Notes under the pieces: generated by a model
Seen by the model: only the letters and a program-made list of their open reading frames with translations
What the model was told of the DNA's origin: nothing
Databases searched by the model: none
From: a virus
Direction: 5' to 3' (one strand)
IMG/VR virus record: IMGVR_UViG_3300042314_002531
Span: 1 to 22,534 of that record
Length of the DNA: 22,534 nt
Position numbers and translations under genes: made by a program
Shown: positions 1 through 22,534 of the stretch, one piece after another
Position numbering within the stretch: the first letter of the stretch is position 1
How the letters are laid out: each line of letters opens with the position of its first letter

Positions 1-3000
1 AATGTTAAATTGTTCCCACTAATTAATCCACCGGCACCACCAGCACCATATCGTCCGCCACCACCACCGCCAGCTACAACTAAGTATTCAAATGGACCAT
101 TAAAGCCATTAGTGTTAAAATTGCTGTTATTTGTAAATGTGTGTATTCTATAATTTTCATAAGTTGTTACAGTGCCGCCAGTTGGATAAGAGAATGTTGG
201 AGAAGGTGTCGGAGTTGGGCTTTCTGTAACACTTGGCGTTGCACTCTCAGTAACACTTGGCGTTGGGCTATTTGTTACTGTAGGAGCAGGTGATTCAGAA
301 GGTGTAGGAGAAGGACTATTGCTAGGACTTGGAGAAGGTGTTGGACTTGGAGACCTACTAGGACTTGGAGAAGGACTTGGTGTAAAGCTTGGGCTTGGTG
401 AAGGTGTCGGGCTTGGGCTCTCACTTGGGCTTGGGCTTGGTGTAGGACTTTCAGTTACAGTTGGTGTCGGTGAAGGACTATTGCTAGGACTTGGAGACGG
501 ACTAGGTGTCGGTGAAGGACTTGGACTAGGTGAAGGTGTCGGTGAAGGACTATTGCTAGGACTTGGAGATGGAGTCGGACTTGCAGTCACACTTGGAGAC
601 GGAGAAGGTGTTGGGCTAAATGTCGGGCTAAATGTAGATGTAGGATTCTGGGTAGCAACAGGTGTAGCCGTGACGGTAGGACTTGGCTGAGGAGTTCCTC
701 CAGCATTCCACATGATCTTATTATCAGTGCCCTGCCAAACAATGAAATCATCTGGGTTCCACTCAAGGAATGCACCAGTTTCAGTTGGTGTTGGTGTAGG
801 ACTGTTAGAAGGACTTGGGCTAGGTGTAGGTGAAGGACTGTTAGAAGGACTAGGTGTCGGACTTGCAGTCACTGTAGGACTAATGCTTGGACTTGGGCTA
901 GGACTTGGAGTCGGACTAGCAGTCACAGTAGGACTAATAGATGGACTTGGGCTTGGACTTGGTGTCGGACTAGCTGTTACCGTAGGACTAATAGATGGAC
1001 TTGGTGAAGGACTTGGTGTCGGACTTGGTGTCGGACTTGCTGTTACCGTAGGACTAATAGATGGACTTGGTGTCGGACTTGGTGTCGGACTTGCTGTTAC
1101 CGTAGGACTAATAGATGGACTAGGGCTAGGACTTGGAGTCGGACTAGCTGTCACTGTAGGACTAATTGAAGGACTTGGAGAAGGAGTATTTGTTGGGTTA
1201 TTAGTAGGCGTAGGTGTTGGTGACAAACTTACGCTTGGAGAAGGTGTTGGAGAAGCTGTGGTGCTAGCCGATGGACTTGGTGTGGGGCTATTCGTTGGGC
1301 TATTTGTTGGAGTAGGCGTAGGACTGTTTGTGACGCTAGGCGTTGGTGATGCTGTTGGAGCATTACTTGCACTAGGCGAAGGTGTCGGGCTATTTGTAAC
1401 ACTCGGTGTTGGTGAAGGACTTAAAGTTACACTTGGTGAAGGTGTTGGTGTTGGTCTTGGTTCCTTAAGAGCCTGCCAGCTATAATTACCAGCAAAAACT
1501 TCACGCCAGTTTGTATCAGTTCCGATCTGAGTAATAGCAGATAAATCAGGAGCAACACCTTGGCCAAGTTGACCAAGACTATTTCTACCCCAGCTATAAA
1601 ACTTACCGTTAACATCAATAGCAAAACCGCTATTTCTACCACCAGCAATTTTAGCCCAACTTGTAAATGATCCTATTTGAGTCGGTGTTATAACATTATC
1701 ACTGCTGTTATTTCCACAACCACCAAAAGTTCCTAAGCCCCATGTCCACAAACTGTTGTCGCCCTTTAATGCAAATGAAGGACTCCAAGTCGTGCTAATA
1801 TCAGTCCAAGCATTGCTGGCACCAATCTGAACCCAACTACTAAAATTATTAACTATGCCAATTCCAAGCTGATATTGACTATTAAAACCTGTACCCCAAA
1901 TTGTTCCGTCAGTCTTAAGAGCTATGCTATAATTTTGACCACAATTAATCTTGAACCAGTTGTTTGCTGTTCCTACTTGTGTAAAGGAAGAGCGATTATT
2001 TAAATCACCAAGTCCTAATTGACCATTAGTGTTTTCACCACAGGCATATAAAGTACCATTTTGTTTAATTGCAAATACAGTACCATTGCTAAAGTTAAAT
2101 CCTGCTGCGTTTGCTGATGTTGACCAGTCAGTAGAACTGCCTACTTGAACAGGACTGCTTCTGTCAATTTGATCATTTTGACCAAGAGCACCATAACTAT
2201 TTTTGCCCCATGTCCAAAGCGTTCCATTAGTCTTAACTGCAACACTTGTATCATTAATGTCTGTAGTTGCCCAATCAGTGGCAGCGCCAATCTGAATAGG
2301 ACTACTTCTGTCAATCTTAGTGCCATCACCAATAGAACCATATTGATTTGATCCCCATGCCCATAGTTTTCCTAAATTGTCTACATAACCAAAAGTGTTA
2401 TAACCAGCAGGAGCATATTCATAAATCTTAGTGTCTACATAAAGTGGAACATCACTGTTAATAACGGAATTATTGCCAAATTGACCATTGGTGTTATCGC
2501 CTCCAACCCATCTTTCCGAAACAATAAATGGAACATCTGTTGCTGTTGGATAAGGTGTGCTAGTCGGTGAATTGGTTGGTGAAGGCGTAGGTGTCGCCGA
2601 TCCCGAAGGAGATGGGCTAGGTGTGGGACTGTTGGTCACACTAGGCGACGGTGTTGGCGTAGCTGTAGTGCTTGCAGAAGGACTGGGTGTCGGCGATAAT
2701 GTTACACTCGGAGTCGGAGTGGGGGTAAGTACATACCAGAAAATATTTAGATTTACAATTCCTGCAGGTTCTGTGTAAGCAAGCGGGTTATTTAAAGTTA
2801 ATGAAGGTTGGAAACCACTAACAGTATAAGCATCTTGTCTAGAACCACTAGCATTACGGAATAATGCCACGCCTCTTGCAAATTGATAATTATAATTACC
2901 TACATTGTTACTTTGAATATTGCCAATACTATATTGGAAATTAATATAACCATCTGCCAAAACGTTTAATTGAGTTAATATGTTGAATGCATCAGAATAA

Positions 3001-3821
3001 TTTAGATTCTGTATATTCCATCCGTTTGTAATTGGTGTCCATTGATAGTATGGATTAGCGTTCGTTGCCTTCAAGTTTCCGCTAATAAGCTCCGCAATTG
3101 GAGTCATAGAAGGCGTAGGCGAAGGACTTGGTGACGGACTGGTAGTTGGAGTCGGCGTAACACTGAAGCTAGGTGTTGGAGACGGAGATCCAGAAGGACT
3201 GGGGCTAGGCGTTGGGCTAGCAGTTGTAGATGCCGATGGGCTCGGAGTCGGTGAATCTGTAGGTGTTGGAGTCGGTGAATTAGATACAGAAGGCGTTGGC
3301 GAAGCTGTTGTAGACGCCGAAGGTGAAGGCGTTGGTGAAGCTGTTGTAGTCGGAGTCGGGCTATCTGTAGGCGTAGGGGTCGGTGAATTGGATACAGATG
3401 GCGTAGGACTGGCTGTAGTGCTTGCAGATGGACTTGGGGTCGGACTTGCCGTCACCGTTGCTGTAGGCGTATTTGTGGGGCTTTCCGTCGGGGTTGGCGA
3501 CGGGCTCTTAGATGGACTTGGCGTAGGTGTTGAACTATTTGAAGGACTTGGCGAAGGTGTAGCTGTAGCGGATTCACTAGGTGTAGGACTGGGCGACCTT
3601 GTTGGGGATGGCGTAGGCGTAGCGGTCTGTGTTGGAGTTGGACTGGGTGTAAATGTAACCGTAGGTGTAGGACTTAAAATTGGACCAACATTTAAAGTAC
3701 ATGGAAGTTGGGCTATATTGCCAGTTGAATCAATTACTTGAACAACAAATGAATAACTACCCGGTTGAGTGGGAGTGCCTGATAAAACGCCTGTTATTGG
3801 ATCTAAATATAATTCACTCAA
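1..3821 (-). CDS. Giant Pro/Thr/Ser-linker RCC1 propeller protein, 3' end outside window
   Basis: An uninterrupted minus-strand frame runs from 3821 past position 1 (at least 1273 codons). I translated it in full and saw no stop. Order of parts: residues 1-50, the C-terminal half of an Ig-like He_PIG domain ([16 protein letters not shown]); 51-238, Pro/Thr/Ser linker; 239-363, a compact domain I do not recognise; 364-425, linker; 426-785, seven RCC1-type repeats ([13 protein letters not shown] and relatives), enough for one closed beta-propeller; 786-1012, linker with 54-bp tandem repeats; 1013-1042, a Trp-rich island; 1043-1205, linker; 1206 onward, a glycine-rich domain ([11 protein letters not shown]) of the kind seen in phage tail fibres. 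Start: the only candidate near the upstream gene is TTG at 3821, overlapping its TGA, with GGGGAG five bases before it; entry by frameshift is the alternative. Probable virion fibre or adhesin (inference). Confidence 0.85.
856..1191 (-). repeat. 54-bp tandem repeat in linker of the left giant protein
   Basis: About six imperfect copies start at 856, 910, 964, 1030, 1084 and 1138 (plus-strand sequence GTCGGACTwGC...GTAGGACTAAT). The period is 54 bp, except one step of 66 bp where an extra 12-bp GTCGGACTTGGT unit is inserted. It is in frame and encodes an 18-residue unit close to [16 protein letters not shown]. Expansion by slippage or unequal recombination is the likely origin. Confidence 0.85.
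3245..3432 (-). repeat. 108-bp direct repeat in linker of the left giant protein
   Basis: Two copies of a 36-residue linker unit lie 108 bp apart, recognisable by [20 protein letters not shown] in each. The DNA copies have diverged at third positions more than the protein has, so the repeat is older than the 54-bp array or is kept by selection on the amino acids. Confidence 0.7.
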
Positions 3822-4324
3822 GGCAACTCCCCACTAACAATGCTCCAAGTTAAAGTGCCAACGCCACCAGTTGACACAAATGTATAAGAGTAGGGAACAT
3901 TGGGAACAGCTTGAGGTAAATTGCCATCATTGGTAATTCTTAATAGTTCTAAAGGATACTGTCTATCCGTGACACCTTCTCCCGCCCTACTTTCACAATA
4001 TATACGCAATAAATTACCAAAATATATATTCTCAACTTGACTTACATACCAAATTTGATTTGAACTATCCACAATTCTGCAATTCATTTGTGGAAATTCT
4101 ATTGCAGGATCCCATTCACTAATCGCTACCATAAAATGGCATCTAGTGCGCTGACCATAAGTTCCGCTACCAATATCATTGACTTCATCAGTAGATACAG
4201 GCCTTCTAAATGCCCAGTCGTAGGAATAAACCTGACCATTAGTGTTATGGAAGGTTAGAGTTTCAACATTTGCCCACCAACGATATGTAGTAGCAAAATT
4301 AAATACTGGATTGGCTGTTGGCAT
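3818..4324 (-). CDS. Neck/connector-like protein ending inside an Ig-like domain
   Basis: 168 residues. Roughly residues 1-130 form a small beta-rich domain with the pattern [31 protein letters not shown] and [17 protein letters not shown], which I associate with small phage head-closure or head-tail connector proteins; this is a resemblance, not a firm family assignment. Residues 133-168 ([14 protein letters not shown], then [10 protein letters not shown]) are the first half of a He_PIG Ig-like domain, and the stop codon cuts it mid-domain. The missing half continues in the -1 frame from 3821. The gene starts 7 bases after the 70-residue gene and follows the capsid genes, which fits a neck role. 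On its own it would carry half a fold, which suggests a frameshift, a coupled restart or a sequence indel. Confidence 0.75.
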
Positions 4325-9358: not shown

Positions 9359-9898
9359 TTATGTCAACTTATTTTTGAAATCTAATAACAATTCATCATA
9401 AAATTCATTAGTTATTTTATATTTTTTGGTAATTTCGCTTTTTTTATAATTCTGTATTACCATAATTAATATGTCAATCTCAAGTATAGTATAGTGAAAA
9501 TTGATATGGTCTTGCAGCAATATAACAAATTCTTCTGTTTCATTTTGCTTGTCTTCTATCTTTTCTGGTATATCCAAAAGCAAAATTTTTCTTTCGTGTT
9601 GCAATCTTTTTGTGCCAATTAAACTTCTATAAATCCTTCCAAATATATATAATCGAGCAAAAGCGCCTAACGATACATTTTTAGATGGATCAAACCTTTT
9701 TTTAGCCATTAACAAACCATACCAGCCTTCTTGTATAGCATCTTCAAGTTCAATGCTTGAATTCATTTTTGAAAAATAAGATGCTATGTTTTTGACCAGT
9801 GGTTCATATTTCAAAATTTCATCATTTTGGTTTGATGGATCTTGTTTTAACGGACTTTTTTTCTGCGGGTTTTTTTTCTGGGATTTGTTGTTCGGCAT
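9359..9898 (-). CDS. Sigma-70 region 2 transcription factor
   Basis: 179 residues from ATG 9898, chosen because GGAGG lies directly before it; an upstream in-frame ATG at 9928 has no ribosome site. After a Lys/Asn/Gln-rich head, residues 30-95 match sigma-70 region 2: YEPLVKNIASYF, then LEDAIQEGWYGLLMAKKRFD, then NVSLGAFARLYIFGRIYRSL. The middle DIPEKIEDK segment and the C-terminal EITKKYKITNEFYDELL look like linker and a degenerate region 4. It would direct the host RNA polymerase to phage promoters, in the way T4 gp55 or sporulation-type sigmas do. The start overlaps the portal gene by 77 bases in another frame, which couples it to head-gene expression. It is not close enough to call a gp55 orthologue. 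Confidence 0.82.
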   Translation of the reverse strand: MPNNKSQKKNPQKKSPLKQDPSNQNDEILKYEPLVKNIASYFSKMNSSIELEDAIQEGWYGLLMAKKRFDPSKNVSLGAFARLYIFGRIYRSLIGTKRLQHERKILLLDIPEKIEDKQNETEEFVILLQDHINFHYTILEIDILIMVIQNYKKSEITKKYKITNEFYDELLLDFKNKLT

Positions 9899-11492
9899 TA
9901 TCCTCCACAGGTTCTGTAAACAATTCATTTATAATGTCATCAGGCAATACAGGATGGTATTGCTTCATTAGTTTTTTACCCGCTTCTGGTGTCACTCCAA
10001 CTGCCTTAATTGCCGCCACACTTTTCAAAATGTTTTCTAATCCATCATCATTCTGACTTTGCTTTTTCTGCTCATCATATTCCATACCTTGTTCAGCTGC
10101 TATTGTATTGCTGCTCTTAATTCCCATATCCCAATAAATCTTATTAGTCTGCGCTTCCTCATATGGTTCCCTCGTAATTAAACTAGGACCAGTAGGAACG
10201 ATTTTTAAATCGCTAAGAGCATTGGTAGGCAACAATCCCTTTTTAACAGCTGTGGTTATTTGCTTCCATAACAAACTTTGGTGAGGCTTGGTTCTCTTAG
10301 AAGCAAAGAAGTCGCCAACACGTTTTTGATATAAGCTAAAAGTCCTATAACTTGGACTCTCAGCCACCAAGTGACTAGCATATGCAGAACTTTCCAACTT
10401 TTGTGTCAAGTGCGCCTCAGAAATACCAAAATTGGCTGCAATGGCTCTTAGATTAACCAACAATGTAATCTCAGCCTCAGCACTATCTAAATTCTGTTGT
10501 GGGAATTCATACTCGACGTTTGCACTGCTGGTAAGAATACTACTGTTAGGCAATGTTTCAATGTTTAAAGGTTGTTGACCCGGTGCTGGATTTGTCACAG
10601 TTACATTCGTTGTCTTTGCCAATAAAGCATCTATTCCCTCAGGCGGAGCATTATCAATTTTACGAATCATACTTACTTTTGATCTGCTAATTGCCAAGCT
10701 AACCATACTATTCAAAATCTGCTCAGCATTCATAAAGTTTTGATACACAGGGAAGAATAGACTAATGCCTCTTTTTGAATTACTATAAGTTCCGGCTTTA
10801 TCATAATTAATATCATCAGCTGGCACTAAAGATGGCAGATAGGAAACACCTGTATCACTAAGTTTGTCACAAATCCAGTAGCCGACTACATCGTGCAAAT
10901 CGTCTTTTCTACAAGCAATGCCAAAAGACATATCAGGATCATTAGTATCACTTGGGGGCAAAATAAGATCGTTTTCTACCCACCTTAAATCTAAAAGACC
11001 ATCTGAGTTCTCAAATATCCTACAACAAGCTTCACCTTCTACTACAATTCTATATATGTATTCTAATTCCATCTGTTGGAAATTATTTTTTTCTACACAT
11101 AAATCAACAAGCTCTTGAGCAAGTGAAACTAATTTTGAATTAACGCCATCTTTGGTAGGTGTGACTTTATATTTAAAACCTTCGCCAACACAGAAATCTT
11201 GAAAAATAGTAATGACAGCTTGGGCAAATTCATTGTATGCATAAATATTTCTGGCTTGTTCTCTGACCTGTTTAAGCTGCCAGTTGGTTAAATAAACCTG
11301 TTTATAATAACCTGAAAGATTGTTGTATTGAGCTGCAGTAGAATATGGGTTTACACCTGAAGCATTGCCCATATAACCATATGGCCAATAACCTGAAGTG
11401 AAACTCTGAAGGCTATATGGAAAAAAGTCCATACCCTGACCAGCAGTAGGACCGGGTATTACAAAGTTTTCTTTTACAAATTTTTTGGCCAT
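9822..11492 (-). CDS. Portal protein
   Basis: 556 residues, normal for a portal. Features: YLTNWQLKQVREQARNIYAY near the N-terminus; a central part with WVENDLILPPSD and SKRGISLFFPVYQNFMNAEQ, typical of the lambda-type portal core; then SAEAEITLLVNLRAIAANFG and a long helical stretch; and a Lys-rich tail (PEKKPAEKKSVKTRSIKPK). Twelve copies would form the ring at the head vertex through which the terminase pumps DNA and to which the neck attaches. It follows terminase and precedes the protease, the usual order. Ribosome site AGGTAGGT lies just upstream. The Lys/Pro-rich tail is encoded where the sigma-like gene overlaps, so it may have been shaped by the overlap. Confidence 0.88.
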   Translation of the reverse strand: MAKKFVKENFVIPGPTAGQGMDFFPYSLQSFTSGYWPYGYMGNASGVNPYSTAAQYNNLSGYYKQVYLTNWQLKQVREQARNIYAYNEFAQAVITIFQDFCVGEGFKYKVTPTKDGVNSKLVSLAQELVDLCVEKNNFQQMELEYIYRIVVEGEACCRIFENSDGLLDLRWVENDLILPPSDTNDPDMSFGIACRKDDLHDVVGYWICDKLSDTGVSYLPSLVPADDINYDKAGTYSNSKRGISLFFPVYQNFMNAEQILNSMVSLAISRSKVSMIRKIDNAPPEGIDALLAKTTNVTVTNPAPGQQPLNIETLPNSSILTSSANVEYEFPQQNLDSAEAEITLLVNLRAIAANFGISEAHLTQKLESSAYASHLVAESPSYRTFSLYQKRVGDFFASKRTKPHQSLLWKQITTAVKKGLLPTNALSDLKIVPTGPSLITREPYEEAQTNKIYWDMGIKSSNTIAAEQGMEYDEQKKQSQNDDGLENILKSVAAIKAVGVTPEAGKKLMKQYHPVLPDDIINELFTEPVEDNAEQQIPEKKPAEKKSVKTRSIKPK

Positions 11493-11662: not shown

Positions 11663-12075
11663 GCTATAATTCCCCAATTTGTTAATACTTCACCATCTTT
11701 TTCATTCCACCATTCCCTCATAAACTGTTTGCAACGTATCTTGCATTCACCTTGAACGGGACAGTTGTAATATATAGAATAATCTGCTACATATTTAGCA
11801 ACTACATAATGGTCTTTTTGTAAACATATAATGGGAACTTTATAATCCATGAAGTGTTTAAGATGAGCATAATTTAAATTGCCAGCAATAACATGCATGC
11901 CTTTTTCTCTCAAGAAACTTTCAATAGTTCTAACTTGCACACCATCTATGCTATTGCTCAAGCTTTCTAAGCCTCTTTTATTAATCTTGAAGTATTCCAA
12001 TACCATTTCAACACAAGCAACGCCACAATCTGTACTTTTTTTCTGCAATATAGAAGGTAAATTATATTTCTTCAT
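11647..12075 (-). CDS. C39-like papain-fold cysteine peptidase
   Basis: 142 residues, the size of a lone C39 peptidase domain. The N-terminus has the C39 signature: Gln11 (oxyanion hole), then TDCGVACVEMVLEYF with nucleophile Cys17. The second block DHYVVAKY gives catalytic His89. The third position, usually Asp in an ADP motif, appears to be Asn104 in YYNCP, as in papain. A Cys-rich insert follows (Cys105, Cys111, Cys115). Known C39 domains cut double-glycine leaders of peptide bacteriocins during export; relatives include other papain-like enzymes. No ABC transporter or double-glycine peptide is present here, so the substrate is unknown. It lies between terminase and portal, with AGGGG before its ATG and a small membrane gene overlapping its end. 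Confidence 0.78.
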   Translation of the reverse strand: MKKYNLPSILQKKSTDCGVACVEMVLEYFKINKRGLESLSNSIDGVQVRTIESFLREKGMHVIAGNLNYAHLKHFMDYKVPIICLQKDHYVVAKYVADYSIYYNCPVQGECKIRCKQFMREWWNEKDGEVLTNWGIIAWKPT

Positions 12076-12093
12076 GATTCCCCTATATATAGA

Positions 12094-13593
12094 TTAGCGT
12101 TTGAAATGACTTTCAAAAACGGGTTTTTCAATTAAACATGCCAAGCCAAAAGAATCACCGAAATCTGGTGAACGACCTAAACGTTTTATAATTTTTTCTT
12201 TAGATTCTAAAATTATTTGAGATTTATTGTTTACCTCAAAACAAGGCATTCGTAATTCCTGCAGCAATAATTCTTGTTGTTGTTTTGGCAACATAGCGAT
12301 ACTTAATGCTTTTTTTCGGGCTAAATCCCTTGCTCTCACCCATATTTCTGAACGCTTTCCTTGTACGTATGCTTCAATATCTTCAGACGCCTTCTTATTA
12401 TTAATAACCTCAATAAAGTTATATTTATCGTTTTTAGTTCCAGCCAAGTCAATAACTCCTGCTCCAAGACCTGATCCATCAATATTGCATGGAATATTGT
12501 ATGGAGATAGGGTTTTTGTGCCGTATTTTCTGCATAATTCTTTTATTTTTTCAGCTGATTGGACTATAGAAAAGCCTTTATAAGCTTGAACTTCTACTAT
12601 GTTGGGCCCCCTACGTACCACAAATACAGTGCTACAGCTACCATAACGGGCAATATCAGCGCCAATAGTAACAAGGTAGTCTTTGTGATCGGGAATAGGG
12701 AGTAAAAGGTTTGCAAGGTCTTGTTCTGAGTAGAGTGAGAAATCGGATTGACTGGGGTATTTGCCTCTAATTTGGACATCAAAAATCGGATTCTCGCTGA
12801 TATAATTCTTGCCCTCAAACTGAAAAGCCTTGTCGATTTCATGGGAATCGGCGGGTCTACAGTCAAGTTTAAGTCTTTCTTTGACCGTATTATACGTAAT
12901 GGCACCCTCAATGACTTCTCGCTTTTCAACGATATTTGGGTGCGTAAGTGCCGACATGCTGACAATGTTATATTTACCAGTTAGGGCCTCCAAATACATA
13001 GGAGATGACTTGTTATATGGATTGCCAATGGCTAAAAAGTAATGGTTCTTTTTGCCTGACTCAAACATGCTATGGGCTCTATCCCAAAATATTTGATCAA
13101 CACTGGCACATTCATCAAAAATGATTAATATACCGCCTTTGGAGTGTTTTCCCTGAAAAGCATCACCAGAGTTGGTCGCATAACCATTTACCCACCAGCC
13201 TGAATTTTTAAACAAGCTATTGGCTTTGGGAGCGAAGTCCTTGCAATTAGGCATTATTCTCCGCATTTCCTTAAATATAATTTCGGAAATTTGGCGGTTA
13301 ACAGGTGCCGTTATTAATCCAATTGAGTCAGGATGTGTATCATAAAACCAACAGGCTAATAAAGCAGCAAGTAGAGACTTGCCCACTGAGTGAGCACTCT
13401 CTACTATTGTTGGTCTGTTAGTCAGGACGTTTTCTAAAACACGTATTTGGTCAAGGGTAAGGGTAATACCCCTGAATTTTGCATACTCAATTATGTTAGA
13501 TGGGACTGCTTGTTTCTGTGTACGGGTTTTCTGGAGGGAGCAAGCAATTTGTGTCAATCGTTCTGCCTGTTTGATTAGCTTCAAGTAACTCAT
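12094..13593 (-). CDS. Terminase large subunit
   Basis: 499 residues. The ATPase part shows Walker A ESAHSVGKS (Lys72), Walker B ILIIFDE (Asp160, Glu161) and a coupling motif LAIGNP (187-192). The RNase H-like nuclease part shows GADIARYG (Asp313), IDGSGLGAG (Asp372) and SPDFGDSFGLA (Asp477, Asp480), so both catalytic centres look intact. It is the motor that packages DNA through the portal and cuts the concatemer. Its start at ATG 13593 lies 98 bases inside the small-terminase gene in another frame and has no clear ribosome site, so the true start may be a few codons later, at a TTG; the motifs are unaffected. Confidence 0.95.
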   Translation of the reverse strand: MSYLKLIKQAERLTQIACSLQKTRTQKQAVPSNIIEYAKFRGITLTLDQIRVLENVLTNRPTIVESAHSVGKSLLAALLACWFYDTHPDSIGLITAPVNRQISEIIFKEMRRIMPNCKDFAPKANSLFKNSGWWVNGYATNSGDAFQGKHSKGGILIIFDECASVDQIFWDRAHSMFESGKKNHYFLAIGNPYNKSSPMYLEALTGKYNIVSMSALTHPNIVEKREVIEGAITYNTVKERLKLDCRPADSHEIDKAFQFEGKNYISENPIFDVQIRGKYPSQSDFSLYSEQDLANLLLPIPDHKDYLVTIGADIARYGSCSTVFVVRRGPNIVEVQAYKGFSIVQSAEKIKELCRKYGTKTLSPYNIPCNIDGSGLGAGVIDLAGTKNDKYNFIEVINNKKASEDIEAYVQGKRSEIWVRARDLARKKALSIAMLPKQQQELLLQELRMPCFEVNNKSQIILESKEKIIKRLGRSPDFGDSFGLACLIEKPVFESHFKR

Positions 13594-16228: not shown

Positions 16229-19200
16229 TTAAGTGGGTGTCGGTGTGGGGAATCCAGCTTGAACTCCTTGAGCTGACATACTATTTGAACCCGGTACCTG
16301 TTCACTAAACCTGAGCCAAGTCTTAGTGTTATCTATCATAACCGGGCTGCTTTGGGCAGTAGCAAAAGTATTCAATGAAAGATTAGCATTCAAAGCTCCT
16401 ACAGCCCACAATGTGTTGTCGGATTTAATCATAAATACTGTAGTTGCACATGGCTTTACATCAATCCAAGGACCACCAATCATTTGCACCCAACTTGATT
16501 TGCTGATAACAGTCCCATCTCCAATTGTTCCACTTGTATTTGATCCCGTTGACCAAATGTTCCCAGCATTATCAAGAATAAATGTAATTGTTGAACCACC
16601 TGCAATCTTCTGGATGGTATATGCACCACCAATTTGAATAGGTGAAGAAGCAGGAATAACATTATTTAAACCAAATTGACCAGTGCTATTACTGCCACAA
16701 GTCCAATAAGTATTATTATTCTTCTTGGCAATAAAGTTAACAGTTCCTACTGTAACATCTACCCAGTTTGTATCAGCACCAATTTGAACAAATTGAGAAC
16801 GATTTATAAGGTCACTTTTACCTAATTGACCTTGTCCATTAAACCCACAAGACCACAATCTACCAGAACTATCAAGAGCTACTTGGCAGTTTGAGAATCC
16901 AAAAGATTCTACCCAATCAGTTTTGCCAAGTGATTCTTGAACAGGACTACTAGCATTAATTATTGTATTATTTGCAAGTCCACCATTTGCACCTTGACCA
17001 GCACTCCACAATGTTCCGTTAGGGAAGATTCTGGTTTGAACGTTTGATATGCCAAAAGATGCAAAATTAGCACCAGTTATTTGAACTTGACTGCTCTGAT
17101 TTACTGTTGAATTTATGCCCAACCTACCGTATGAGTTTAACCCTGCTTGCCATAAAGTGCTGTCTTGTTTTCTAAATAGACCGTTGTTTCCTATTGCCAC
17201 ATCAGCATAAACACTAGATGGATAGAAATTATTCAATGCATTTATATTAACGGCAAGTCCGTTGCCCATTTGACCATTTGTTCCTACACCCCAACCCCAC
17301 CAATTTAAGACTTCAGGGGTTGCAGAAGGAGTTGGTGTAGGAGTAGGACTTGCTGTTGCTGTTGGTGTTGGCTGAGGTAGTCCATTTGCATATGCAAATG
17401 TTTGGGGTTGGAATGTTCCTCTGATCGAATTGAAATATTGCCAGCTGAATGTATTGTCTAACATTATAGGACTGGAAACATTCACAAGTGATGCATTTAA
17501 TAATGGAGAACCACCACTGCCAACTCCCCATAAAGTATTATCAGTCTTTATAAACAATATATTGCTTCCATTAGCACAGGCATCTAGAACACCAGATGCT
17601 ATTTGTGTATAGGAACTTCTAGGTGTAATATCATTTAGTCCTAATTGTTGTTGTCCAGTTCCCCATAAATTGCCACTCGTATCAAGCAGAATTATTCCAC
17701 CCGAGCTACCAACAATTTTACTTATAGTTTTATCCGATACTACTTGAACAGGACTGCTCTTGCTTATATTGGTTCCATCACCAATTTGACCTAATGTATT
17801 GAGTCCCCAAACATAAACAGAACCATTAGTTTTAAGGGCAGCAGAAAATGCATTACTTACAAAAGTACTAGACCAATCTGTTCCTGCACCTATTTGTGTA
17901 AATGTAGATTTTGCTACATTTAAAGTATTTAATCCTTGATTGCCACTTGAGTCAGAACCAACTGTCCACAATTTGCCAGCACTATCAATTGCTAATTGTG
18001 ATGCACTTCCAATAAAATGAGTCACCCAATCTGTTTTACCTAAAATTTCTTGAACAGGAGTGCTTGTATTCAAATTTGTAAGATTTATGGCTGCAGATCC
18101 TTGACCGGCAGCACCCCAAGTCCACAATGTTCCATCGGCTTTAATACCACTAGACATGTTGACATTACTTATTGCTCTTGTCCACGAACCTGTTGCTTGA
18201 ACCATGCTTGAACGAGGTATTACATCTCCTAATCCTAATTGAGCAGATGTATTGCTACCACAAACCCACAAAGTGTTGTCTGCTTTTAAACCAAAGAATG
18301 CAGTTCCAATAGCTATTTGTGTGAAATCTGATGGTTGTGGATTGTAAAGTCCAGTAACTTGGTTTGTATTACCTATCGATAGAGAACCACCTGTGTTTGA
18401 TCCCCAACCCCACCAAGCACTAACTGTGCCAATTGTAGGACTTGGGGTAGGAGTTGCAGGTGCTTCTGAGGCACTTGGAGTCGGACTAGGTGTTTCACTG
18501 GCACTCGGACTTGGTGTTGGACTTGCTGTTGCTGGTGCAACACTCGGACTTGGTGTTGGACTAGCCGTTGCTGGCCCAATAGTTGGCTGAGGTGTAGGTC
18601 CCGGATTTGTCCACTTGCATTGTAGATAATCAGACACTTGTGTAACTTCTGCTGCACTTAGCTCTCTGTCGTATACTATAACTTCAAGAACCTTAGTGTT
18701 GGCTGGTTCATTAGCATTTGCACCTGCACCACCAAAGCAAACCTGTGCCCAGTTGCTTGTGCTGGTTGGGGTACCACTAGTTCTATCTGTGCCATCAACA
18801 TAATACTTAATTGCATTGGCAGCAGACTTAGTCATGATGCCGTTGTGCTTGCCGGTTCCTGATTGATAACCAGAAACTATAGATGCTCCATAGAAGCAAC
18901 CAATAGGAGTAGGTCCACCATATTGATTCAAACTGATAAGTGCATTAATTGAACTAGATTGAACTGTTCTGTGACTTGGACTAATTGAGGCTGGTGCATC
19001 TTCCATAACCACTATTGTACAAGCCCCAGAAAGGCTATAAGCACCATTAGTTGTCATGCCATCAGCATTTGCCCCAGCTGTATTGTCAAATAGAACGTAA
19101 CTTCCAGCAACAGTGCCATCTGAGAACCAAGTGGGTTGTTTCACACTTGTTGCCTGTTGCATACCAGTCCATGTAGCATTCGTTGTGCTATTGCCCCAGC

Positions 19201-22200
19201 TAGATACTTGAACACCATTGGTAGGAGTGCCACCATTGATCTTGCTTGTATCACTTGCATCAAACCAACCTACCATTCCACTTGTCACAGGCAATGGCAC
19301 TGGTGTGCATGTTGCCGTAGGAGATGGAGTAGGACTTGGTGATGGACTTGGTGTTGGTGAAGGTGTAAATGTCGGTGTTAAAGTCGGTGATTCACTAGGA
19401 CTTGGAGATGGTGTAGGACTTTCCGTTGGAGTTGGGGAAGGACTCTCACTAGGACTTGGAGTCGGACTTTCCGTAGGTGAAGGTGTAGGACTTTCACTAG
19501 GGCTAGGAGATGGTGTAGGACTTTCCGTTGGAGTCGGTGTAGGACTCTCACTAGGACTTGGTGTTGGGCTCAGAGTAACTGTCGGGGTTGGAACATTGGC
19601 TTGTCTGAAAGCAAACACACCCGATTGAACACAATCTAAGTCAATCCAATAGTTATCAGCAATTACTGTTTGAACCATGCTGCTTTTATTTAAAGCAAGA
19701 CTAATTCCTAACATTCCTGTTCCAGCAAGACCACATCCCCATAATGTTCCATCAGTTTTAACACCAATAATAACACTTCCTCTACTCCTAGCAATTCTCC
19801 AGCTGCCAGCTATTTGAACAGGACTTGAACGGGATATGATATCATTTTGACCCAGTTGACCCGAACTGTTAAAACCCCAAACCCATAATTCATTGAGTGT
19901 GTTTAAAGCACAAACACTGCTTTGCATAGTGCCTTCAACCCAATTGTTTGCTGTGCCAATTTGTGTCCAAGAAGACCTATTTATAGTATCTCCTAGACCC
20001 AATTGACCAACGGAATTGGTTCCAGTTGACCACATAGTGCCATCGGTTTTAAATGCTAAGAAGTTTGCTCCACCCCAGTTAGTCACAATTTTCCAGTTAG
20101 TATCAGTTCCATATTGTGTGAAACTGCTGTATGAAACTTGTAGGGCAGATCCAAAGCTGCCAGACAACCATAATGTTCCGTCATTCTTAACTAAAGTCGT
20201 GCCTATATTACTGGGAGCTTGTCCTATGTTTGTCCAACCAGTTTCAGTGACTAATTGTATTGGGCTACTAATTGTATCAAAAATTGATATAATATTACCC
20301 AATGCAGATGAACCATTACTGCCCCATCCCCACAAAGTTCCATCTTTCTTGATAGCCAAACTATTTGTATTACCAATAAGTATTTGACTCCAATTATTCT
20401 CAGTTCCTAATTGGACAGGACTAGAATAATTAATTACATTATTTAAACCTAAACTGCCTTGAGTATTATTGCCCCAAACCCATGCTGTTCCATCTGATTT
20501 AACAATGCCTGCATTACTTCCAGCAACACTATACGGTGGATTTACTCCAACATATTCACTACTTTGTGATTGGAATGTAGGAGTAAAACGAGTTATTGTA
20601 TCATTTAAACCTAACTGACCATTTGCATTACTGCCCCATGCATACAAGTCGATCAGAGTTGTAGGACTTGGACTTGGTGTTGGAGTAGGACTCTCAGAAG
20701 GACTTGGTGAAGGAGTCGGACTTGGTGATTCACTAGGTGAAGGAGTCGGACTTGGTGATTCACTTGGTGAAGGACTTGGAGTAGGACTTTCAGTCACAGT
20801 AGGACTTAATGTTGTCGTTGGAATAGGACTTTCACTAGGACTTGGTGTAGGTGTCGGTGTACTAGCAATAGTTGCTGTAGGTGTAGAAGTTGCAGCATTA
20901 ATCCTTACAATTCCAAAGCTAGTTCTGTTGTTTGCACTGCATGTAAACCAGTTTAGTCCACCAGATACCAAAACAGGACTGCTTTGATTTTGAGTTGTAT
21001 TGATTCCTAATTGGCCTGCAGAACCAGTTCCCCAGCCCCACATAGTTCCATCAACCTTACGTCCCAACATTGAAGCATAGCCACACTCAATCTGTGCCCA
21101 TGTGGTTTCACTACCAACTTGTGCAGGACTACTACGGTTAAATGCAGAACCAATATTAGACCCTAGGGAGCCGTTTGTGTTTTGACCCCATGTCCAAAGT
21201 GTACCATCACTCTTTATTGCACCTACTGGCCAATAATCTGCACTGACTTGTGTCCAATTGCTATTAGTGCCAACTTGTGTCCAACTAGATCTATTAATTG
21301 TATTGTTAATACCCAAACTGCCATTCGTATTAATACCACAAGACCATAATGTGCCATTAGTTTTGATAGCCAAGGCAAATCTTTGACCAGATACTGCCAC
21401 ACTAGACCAGTTCAAGTCTGCACCAACCTGAACAGGACTACTACGATTCACTGCATCTATAAATCCTAGCTGTCCGGCACTGTTGTTACCCCAAGCCCAC
21501 AAACTACCATTAGTTTTAATTGCAAATGCACTATCAAATGCAGCACCACTATAGAACCTAGATACATAAACTCTTGACCATGTATTGTCAGCACCAATTT
21601 GAACAGGACTAGACCTACTAACAATATCATTTAGACCCAATTGTCCACTACTATTATTGCCCCAAGCCCAAAGTGTGCCGTTAGTCTTGACACCAATTGT
21701 AAATCGGTCATTCATAACCCATGACCAATCAGAAGAAACTCCTACTTGTGTAGGTGTAGAACGATTAATTATATTATTTTGACCCAACTCACCACTACTA
21801 TTTAGACCCCACATGTATAGGGTGCCATTATTCTTTACACCAGATATTGAATCTCCACCACTAGGAATAGTTGCCCAATCAGATACTGCAATGAAGATTG
21901 GTGTGGACCTTTGTGTAATACCACCTTGTGTATTATTAGAATACTCACCAGTCGTGTTATCACCCCAAACATAGAATTGATCTGCCAAAGGTGCAATGCT
22001 AGGTGTCGGTGTTGGTGCAGTGCTACTCGGTGTAGGTGGTGCAGGTGTCGGTGTTGCTGTTCCCGTAGGTGCAGGACTACTTGTCACTGTTGGTGTCAAT
22101 GTGTTAGTCGGAGCAGGTGTCGGTGGGAACGTTGCTGTAGGAGTCGGTGTAGGACTTAATGTTGCTGTCGGTGTAGGTCCAGTTCCACTCGGTGTCGGTG

Positions 22201-22534
22201 TTGGAACAGCATTGCCTATCAATCTAATCGTATTATTATTTGCTGCTCCCTGAACAGCAAAATTCAACCACTCATAGCCAACATTGCCAAGCTGAATCAA
22301 ACTACTTGCATTACCATTGCCGGGCAAACCATTTCTAGTTAATAACTTGCCACTTAAATAACTACCAGCTCCCCACAACTTATTGTTAACATCTATAGTA
22401 TAAATATTATTTATAATTGGATAATAATAATTGTATGTTCCTAACAATACCGGACTACTTCTATTAATTACATTGTTTTGAGCTAGTTGACCAGAAGTAT
22501 TTACACCCCAACCCCAAACTGTTGAATCACCCTT
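16229..22534 (-). CDS. Giant multi-propeller RCC1 and LamG protein, 5' end outside window
   Basis: Open from the window edge to TAA 16231-16229, at least 2101 residues; the TTG at 22447 is inside the coding region, since the frame continues upstream as more RCC1 repeat ([15 protein letters not shown]). Residues counted from the edge: 1-110 end of a propeller; linker; 179-547 seven RCC1 repeats; linker; 627-978 seven; linker; 1082-1310 a LamG/concanavalin-like domain (MVGWFDASD through [22 protein letters not shown]); linker; 1371-1716 seven; linker; 1741-2095 seven; a C-terminal PTPTPT stub. RCC1 repeats (COG5184 type) build seven-bladed beta-propellers that bind other molecules, and LamG domains often bind glycans. 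No signal peptide can be judged. A virion adhesin or tail fibre is the likely role (inference); it precedes the head genes in one transcript. Confidence 0.9.
20706..20765 (-). repeat. 30-bp direct repeat in linker of the right giant protein
   Basis: Two adjacent 30-bp copies (20706-20735 and 20736-20765) differ at the last base only. They encode a 10-residue Ser/Pro/Thr/Glu linker unit. Near identity shows recent duplication. Confidence 0.85.

Follow-up and report, generated by a model that had tools for sequence, protein, structure and literature searches.

What would a phage gain from a protein in which one RCC1-type β-propeller after another is strung on stretches made largely of proline, threonine and serine? 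The question is raised by the IMG/VR record IMGVR_UViG_3300042314_002531, of the virus class, whose complete sequence of 22534 bases was analysed (hereafter the window), and which carries on its minus strand an open reading frame (ORF) at positions 16229-22534 that we call chain gene 1. Its product, chain 1, consists of seven-repeat RCC1 blocks, a probable LamG domain and Pro/Thr/Ser-rich linkers. We consider it fairly probable that chain 1, together with the product of a second chain gene at the other end of the window, is an adhesin fibre of the virion of a tailed phage.

Within the window chain gene 1 codes for 2101 amino acids (aa) without an upstream stop codon, and its 5' end is open because the record ends there. 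Pfam found only RCC1-type families in this part of the protein (WD40_RLD, E = 2e-135; RCC1, E = 1.2e-89), values that leave no room for a chance assignment to RCC1, and PHROGs found RCC1 families and a match to a linker. The complete gene is present in IMGVR_UViG_3300043772_004289 (L013; 28670 bases), which was located by a terminase scan of viral contigs and is 99.89% identical to the window across 17755 bases. There, chain 1 comprises 2846 aa, starting from an ATG 4 nt past the stop codon of a 442-aa gene, and runs in the order linker, P1, P2, A, B, LamG, C, D, with six seven-repeat propellers (P1, P2 and A-D). The two copies of chain gene 1 differ at 13 positions, of which 9 are third codon positions; 9 of the differences are synonymous and 4 are not, as expected for a coding gene. 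Cut at its Pro-rich segments, the window part of chain 1 falls into a partial block, two RCC1 blocks, one block of another kind and a further two RCC1 blocks. The parts of chain gene 1 are as follows.

16229-22534, minus strand: chain gene 1, running past the record at its 5' end; 2846 aa when complete (L013), of which 2101 aa lie in the window
22205-22534, minus strand: partial propeller, the last two of seven repeats; complete in L013
21989-22204, minus strand: Pro/Thr/Ser-rich linker
20891-21988, minus strand: propeller A, aa 183-548, seven RCC1 repeats; fold predicted (see below for scores)
20663-20890, minus strand: Pro/Thr/Ser-rich linker
19592-20662, minus strand: propeller B, aa 625-981, seven RCC1 repeats
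19289-19591, minus strand: Pro/Thr/Ser-rich linker, 101 aa
18605-19288, minus strand: LamG-like (Laminin_G_3) domain, 84% identical in the relative L016
18425-18604, minus strand: Pro/Thr/Ser/Ala-rich linker
17378-18424, minus strand: propeller C, aa 1371-1719, seven RCC1 repeats
17315-17377, minus strand: short Pro/Thr-rich linker, 21 aa
16253-17314, minus strand: propeller D, aa 1741-2094, seven RCC1 repeats
16229-16252, minus strand: C-terminal stub FPTPTPT with the stop codon; also present in the relative L017

An earlier note on this DNA had counted exactly seven repeats in each of four complete blocks and recognized part of a fifth propeller. Both observations held: the repeat pattern, applied with a minimum spacing of 40 residues, gives seven for each of A, B, C and D, and the partial block (aa 1-110), which has two repeats in the window, has the full seven in L013. 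A loose regular expression without spacing had returned 8, 7, 5 and 6 repeats for A-D and was replaced by the spaced count. A hidden Markov model of the blade found 7, 7 and 14 repeats in the window blocks, the last value representing C and D merged because the linker between them is short. Across the lineage, the spaced count is seven in all eight complete propellers, i.e. the four of chain 1 in the window, one in chain 2, two further upstream in L013/L018 and one in L016; blocks cut off at the ends of L016 and L017 are outside this set. Propeller A shares 30-40% identity with the seven others. In comparisons of blades between pairs of propellers, the mean match was best at a shift of 0 in 20 of 28 cases (two of them ties), and blades in the same position tend to match best, though not always, a sequence pattern for which duplication of whole propellers may be considered.

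Do these blocks close as propellers, as the earlier note had proposed? For block A, structure prediction from an alignment of the eight lineage propellers agrees with the proposal; for the remaining blocks closure is assumed because they also have seven repeats. The model of propeller A (mean predicted local distance difference test score, pLDDT, 85.0; predicted template-modelling score, pTM, 0.86) has 28 strands and is predicted to close as a ring of seven four-stranded blades. In known RCC1 propellers, the last residues supply the strand that is missing from the first repeat; each phage block likewise has a first repeat that starts at the core motif, and the end of the block can, to judge from its sequence, supply the missing strand. 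The top Foldseek matches to propeller A (rows 1-23, TM-scores of 0.82-0.88 by query length) are domains of UVR8, HERC2, HERC1, RCC1 and RPGR. By VIA-align the best match is the second RCC1-like domain of HERC2 (RLD2; Z 50.4, root-mean-square deviation (rmsd) 1.6 Å, 350 residues), and others are UVR8 (6xzl, Z 44.9), human RCC1 (1a12, Z 44.5) and BLIP-II (1jtd, Z 28.4). The last of these structural relatives suggests another use for the fold, namely an inhibitor or decoy whose propellers capture one host protein in the way BLIP-II captures β-lactamase. Identities of only 30-40% between A and the seven other propellers do not suggest one repeated binding site, and virions of phage W70 contain proteins of a PHROG that chain 1 matches, phrog_4219 (PMC11370258); we regard an inhibitor as highly improbable.

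The earlier note had also described linkers of almost pure Pro/Thr/Ser and a LamG domain interrupting the series. The six inter-domain linkers of the full chain 1 are indeed rich in these residues (68-85% Pro + Thr + Ser, 84-93% when Ala and Glu are included), and 'almost pure' is slightly too strong for them as well as for the N-terminal segment (58% Pro + Thr + Ser). Their lengths range from 25 to 101 residues, the Pro-rich core between C and D being 21 residues long, and the full chain has 498 linker residues in total. A fully extended chain measures ∼0.31 nm per residue, so that these would span ∼150 nm if fully extended, which is an upper bound. As to the LamG domain, a non-RCC1 block stands at the place described and its identity is borderline: the match to Laminin_G_3 (E = 4.8e-6, residues 152-215 of 228) scores 27.2 bits against a cut-off of 27.6, the match to phrog_10356, a virion structural protein, is weak (1.9e-4, residues 8-226), a PDB profile search returned one chance-level match (E = 0.34), and in NCBIfam, where four of five queries had no match, the block reached E = 0.14. 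A fold predicted for the block from two sequences only had a pLDDT of 35. The block at 18605-19288 is probably a LamG domain on this sequence evidence.

At 84% identity between the window and L016, this block is far better kept than the propellers, and the number of propellers differs among relatives, with one after LamG in L016 and two in the window. Both facts would suit a passive spacer or decoration without specific binding, in which propeller number and sequence drift freely. Such free drift is at odds with the seven repeats kept in 8/8 propellers and with the pattern of the 13 differences between the window and L013 described above, and we find a purely passive role distinctly unlikely.

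Where would chain 1 be located? It shares the strand of a late structural cluster that includes genes for the terminase large subunit (phrog_2), the portal (Phage_portal_2), PhoH, a sigma-70 region 2 protein and a capsid protein of the family Phage_capsid_4 (28.5 bits, cut-off 27); the terminase, portal and capsid genes bear out the phage origin claimed earlier. Mass spectrometry detected three proteins of phrog_4219, an RCC1 family matched by chain 1, in virions of the coliphage W70 (PMC11370258), and according to PMC5259590 the RCC1 protein GAP_001 of phage GAP32 was identified by the same method as a structural protein. By analogy with these proteins, chain 1 may be part of the virion. The hairs of phage CBB offered a possible parallel, which was set aside because CBB lacks the GAP32 RCC1 protein (PMC5259590).

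A position on the virion surface is supported by three named phages. In Pseudomonas phage PollyC, the N-terminus of gp38 (annotated as 'tail fiber assembly') resembles that of the T7 tail fibre, in a domain match that stays under the cut-off (6.7e-5; 23.1 bits against 25.2), and RCC1 repeats follow; in Synechococcus phage S-SRM01, an RCC1 gene comes directly after the gene of the 'long tail fiber protein distal subunit'; and in BUCT-ZZ01 one is the second gene after that of a 'tail fiber protein'. Two loci of the IMG/VR survey described below add Pro/Thr/Ser-linked chains. In L088, a chain consisting entirely of linker directly follows a tail-fibre gene (phrog_7760, 2e-10), with the propeller chain as the third gene after it, and in L083 the chain directly precedes the genes for portal, adaptor, head closure, protease and major head protein. 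The architecture, the repeat number, the predicted fold of A, the late context and the presence elsewhere of chains beside tail-fibre and head genes together favour an adhesin fibre, and the adhesin-like role put forward in the earlier note gains support from comparison with W70, PollyC, S-SRM01, L088 and L083. Virion membership, outer location and host binding are all argued here by analogy. Chains 1 and 2 would then be late structural proteins forming flexible or semi-rigid multivalent fibres, with the closed seven-bladed propellers and the LamG-like jellyroll as binding heads and the Pro/Thr/Ser-rich segments of 21-101 residues as spacers keeping the heads apart. Many weak contacts with glycans or proteins of the host surface would tether the virion before it engages its main receptor.

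Some observations weigh against a fibre on the virion. The N-terminus of chain 1 (MVLASTSLLLLHAGLSSSRSAS, followed by linker) has no anchor recognizable by eye, and if the MVLASTSLLLLHAGLSSSRSAS stretch were instead taken for a signal peptide, albeit a poor one, secretion would be favoured. Chain 1 could instead be a multivalent binder that acts outside the virion, secreted or released at lysis, and coats host cells, debris or extracellular polymer, e.g. cross-linking or masking receptors. The short hydrophobic N-terminus as a possible signal peptide, the failure to recognize a virion anchor and an architecture that resembles bacterial surface adhesins all speak for it. It is opposed by the W70 virion proteins (PMC11370258) and by the RCC1 repeats found within the fibre-type protein of PollyC and beside fibre genes in S-SRM01, BUCT-ZZ01 and L088, and we judge it unlikely. 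Another point against a surface fibre comes from the authors who described phAPEC6 (PMC7247149) and W70 (PMC11370258): a DNA-organising role is suggested for the former and repeated for the latter. Under that proposal, which follows the annotation 'regulator of chromosome condensation', chain 1 would sit inside the virion and condense or spool the DNA there. The name was carried over from eukaryotic RCC1, no experiment on a DNA role is given in the accessible text of either paper, and the long Pro/Thr/Ser linkers, the LamG-like domain, the Ig-like and Gly-rich domains of chain 2 and the layout of the PollyC protein point to the outside. A genome-spooling function therefore appears very unlikely.

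The coordinates in the earlier note omit a second chain gene at 3-3821, which adds one seven-repeat propeller and has long Pro/Thr/Ser segments. It lies behind a short ORF, and its features are as follows.

3818-4324, minus strand: 168-aa ORF whose end falls within an Ig-like (He_PIG) domain
3-3821, minus strand: chain gene 2, 3' end open and longer in L011; in frame -1 relative to the 168-aa ORF, starting with the second half of He_PIG
1455-2531, minus strand: propeller of chain 2, seven RCC1 repeats
3-182, minus strand: first part of a Gly_rich_2 domain, which L011 has in full (E = 1.4e-16)

Both He_PIG and Gly_rich_2 count in favour of a fibre. The He_PIG domain is divided over two reading frames at 3818-3821, GGGGAGTTGCCTTGAGTG, where chain 2 starts at a TTG that overlaps the stop codon of the 168-aa ORF. 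Taken separately, the part in the 168-aa ORF has no match and the part in frame -1 matches at 1.4e-7; joined, the halves reach 9.9e-11 in the -1 reading, and 2.2e-13 when the joined sequence is one residue shorter. The junction and chain 2 are identical in the window, L011 and L012 (0 differences), and because L011 and L012 show the same break it is not a one-off assembly error. These three look like the same viral population. L012 and the window break off at an identical position within chain 2, the end of L012 coinciding exactly with base 1 of the window, and L011 continues for another 750 bases.

The split may reflect programmed frameshifting, a restart at the TTG or a fixed mutation. Relevant to a restart, the sequence GGGGAG is located five bases upstream of the TTG; as to frameshifting, inspection by eye revealed no canonical X XXY YYZ slippery heptamer at CCTTGAG. 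Ig-like domains reached by frameshifting are known from coat and tail proteins of phages (PMC5009743; PMC9022992). The 168-aa ORF has no family match in Pfam or PHROGs; in INPHARED, its matches (E = 0.02-0.9) are to tail proteins of Gordonia and Rhodococcus phages and cover the Ig-like part only. From its position and by eye, its N-terminal part is a possible head-completion protein. One elaboration, to which we assign a low likelihood, is that the phage has adhesive whiskers encoded by two loci, chain 1 being a free-standing fibre of six propellers and chain 2 a frameshifted extension, of more than 1500 residues, of a small head-completion-type protein. With the frameshift inside the Ig-like domain, a minority of neck or capsid subunits would carry the extension, which would hold the propeller, the Gly-rich domain and hundreds of Pro/Thr/Ser spacer residues. 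Between the capsid gene and the 168-aa ORF, the very A+T-rich segment 4571-5287 contains a gene that resembles, by eye, an HNH-type homing endonuclease.

The remainder of the window offers little guidance as to the host. INPHARED contains no near DNA match to the window and no match to its capsid protein; the terminase has 308 matches there, the best 20 of which are only 21.9-27.6% identical and say little on host. Of 28 pattern stretches for the terminase in genome_contigs, none was confirmed. Close relatives are few in IMG/VR, with five confirmed loci by terminase and six by capsid alignment (overlapping sets of contigs). Several neighbouring features deserve mention. At 12075-12104, beside the 3' end of the terminase gene, L011, L012, L014 and L015 have ∼530 extra bases, which include a 171-aa ORF in L011. 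The sigma-70 region 2 gene (9359-9928) overlaps the 3' end of the portal gene (9822-11492) in another frame, and L016 has a similar overlapping ORF. Between terminase and portal, inspection by eye suggests a DNA methyltransferase gene in L016 (7680-8804) and L017 (4936-5952); no ORF like it was seen between these genes in the window. The 442-aa gene just upstream of chain 1 (L018, 1996-3324) has GxxN-type repeats that by eye are like the YadA-like head repeats of fibres, and has no significant match in Pfam or PHROGs.

How unusual is such a protein among phages? The rarity implied by the earlier note is not borne out. Alignment of the blade against IMG/VR matched at least 599 stretches, at least 592 of which were confirmed, chain 1 has matches in 28 of 50,697 INPHARED records at E ≤ 1e-5, and RCC1-type models are many in BFVD. 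For a survey, we took the 80 loci with the best blade similarity among the confirmed stretches, plus four further loci; ORFs with fewer than four blade matches, ORFs at locus ends, identical copies and L032 (this phage) were dropped from the counts. Of 108 distinct complete ORFs, 98 have a repeat number divisible by seven. When these are grouped into clusters at 70% identity, the modal count is a multiple of seven in 76 of 86 (related ORFs remain in the sample). The exceptions among the 108 have 5 (one ORF), 8 (three), 12, 25, 34, 57 (one each) and 87 (two) repeats. Viral ORFs of 4385-4389 aa with 87 repeats by the blade model, almost without linkers, were seen in L033 (2429-15583), L035 and L109. 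In the named phages, the blade model finds 14 repeats in BUCT-ZZ01, 7, 7 and 6 in S-SRM01 and 5 in PollyC; with two of these five genes off multiples of seven, either the rule has exceptions or the model misses divergent repeats. Among other arrangements, the propellers of L040 are kept apart by fibronectin type III domains, and in L029 a stretch that is LamG-like by eye precedes two propellers.

The earlier note had called for a search for the same arrangement in other phage proteins, and the survey found it. Besides this phage the survey comprises 83 loci, and in two of them, L083 and L088, an RCC1 chain has five or more Pro-rich runs; both loci have Pro/Thr/Ser-linked seven-repeat chains. 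When seven proteins of the window were compared with all 83 loci, these two included, no match reached E ≤ 1e-4, in a search that did recover L016 and L017 as positive controls; for L088 the comparison covers the surveyed stretch. L083 represents a different phage type because its own portal and major head protein belong to other PHROGs. In the literature on RCC1 phage proteins, as far as open-licence papers and mostly their titles and the beginnings of abstracts go, we found no Pro/Thr/Ser-linked propeller chains; text matches to 'RCC1' in PMC12906663 and PMC5723332 were merely strain numbers, and PMC8557907 has no mention of an RCC1 protein. Each component is known already, phages often encode RCC1 proteins, and chains with Pro/Thr/Ser linkers exist on other contigs too; what is less expected is the second chain, with its frame break near the head genes.

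The three RCC1 PHROGs (phrog_4219, phrog_7220 and phrog_16766) are filed under 'DNA, RNA and nucleotide metabolism'. Propeller chains with spacers and with LamG-like, Ig-like and Gly-rich domains, found beside fibre genes, argue for surface binding modules instead. Should this be true, the label 'regulator of chromosome condensation' on many phage proteins ought to give way to that of candidate receptor-binding protein, and the seven-blade unit would lend itself naturally to exchange as a binding head.

Compared with known systems, the propellers of chain 1 fall within the RCC1/RLD superfamily (RCC1, the RLDs of HERC2, RPGR, UVR8 and BLIP-II), whose members likewise have seven repeats of ∼50 residues and nearly the same fold as the one predicted here. 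The phage chain differs from them in joining six tandem propellers by Pro/Thr/Ser linkers in one polypeptide of 2846 aa, and shows no sign of the Ran- or chromatin-related role of eukaryotic RCC1, nor do we claim one; a phage would not be expected to offer Ran or nucleosomes as partners. A phage protein with a solved β-propeller-like domain, gp131 of phiKZ (4gbf), is a far more distant match to propeller A (Z 16.8, rmsd 3.9, 11% identity). Among phage RCC1 proteins, chain 1 matches phrog_4219 (3.2e-117) and phrog_7220 (4.5e-123), whereas most of the surveyed ORFs have one propeller, or several with short gaps, unlike chain 1. PollyC gp38, with RCC1 repeats behind a fibre-type N-terminus, is only weakly similar to chain 1 (E = 1e-3), has five repeats by the blade model and a T7-type N-terminus that scores below the cut-off. 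The layout of chain 1, beads on a string with seven-repeat propellers, is found in L083, which has three propellers, and in L088, which has one propeller and a separate all-linker chain gene.

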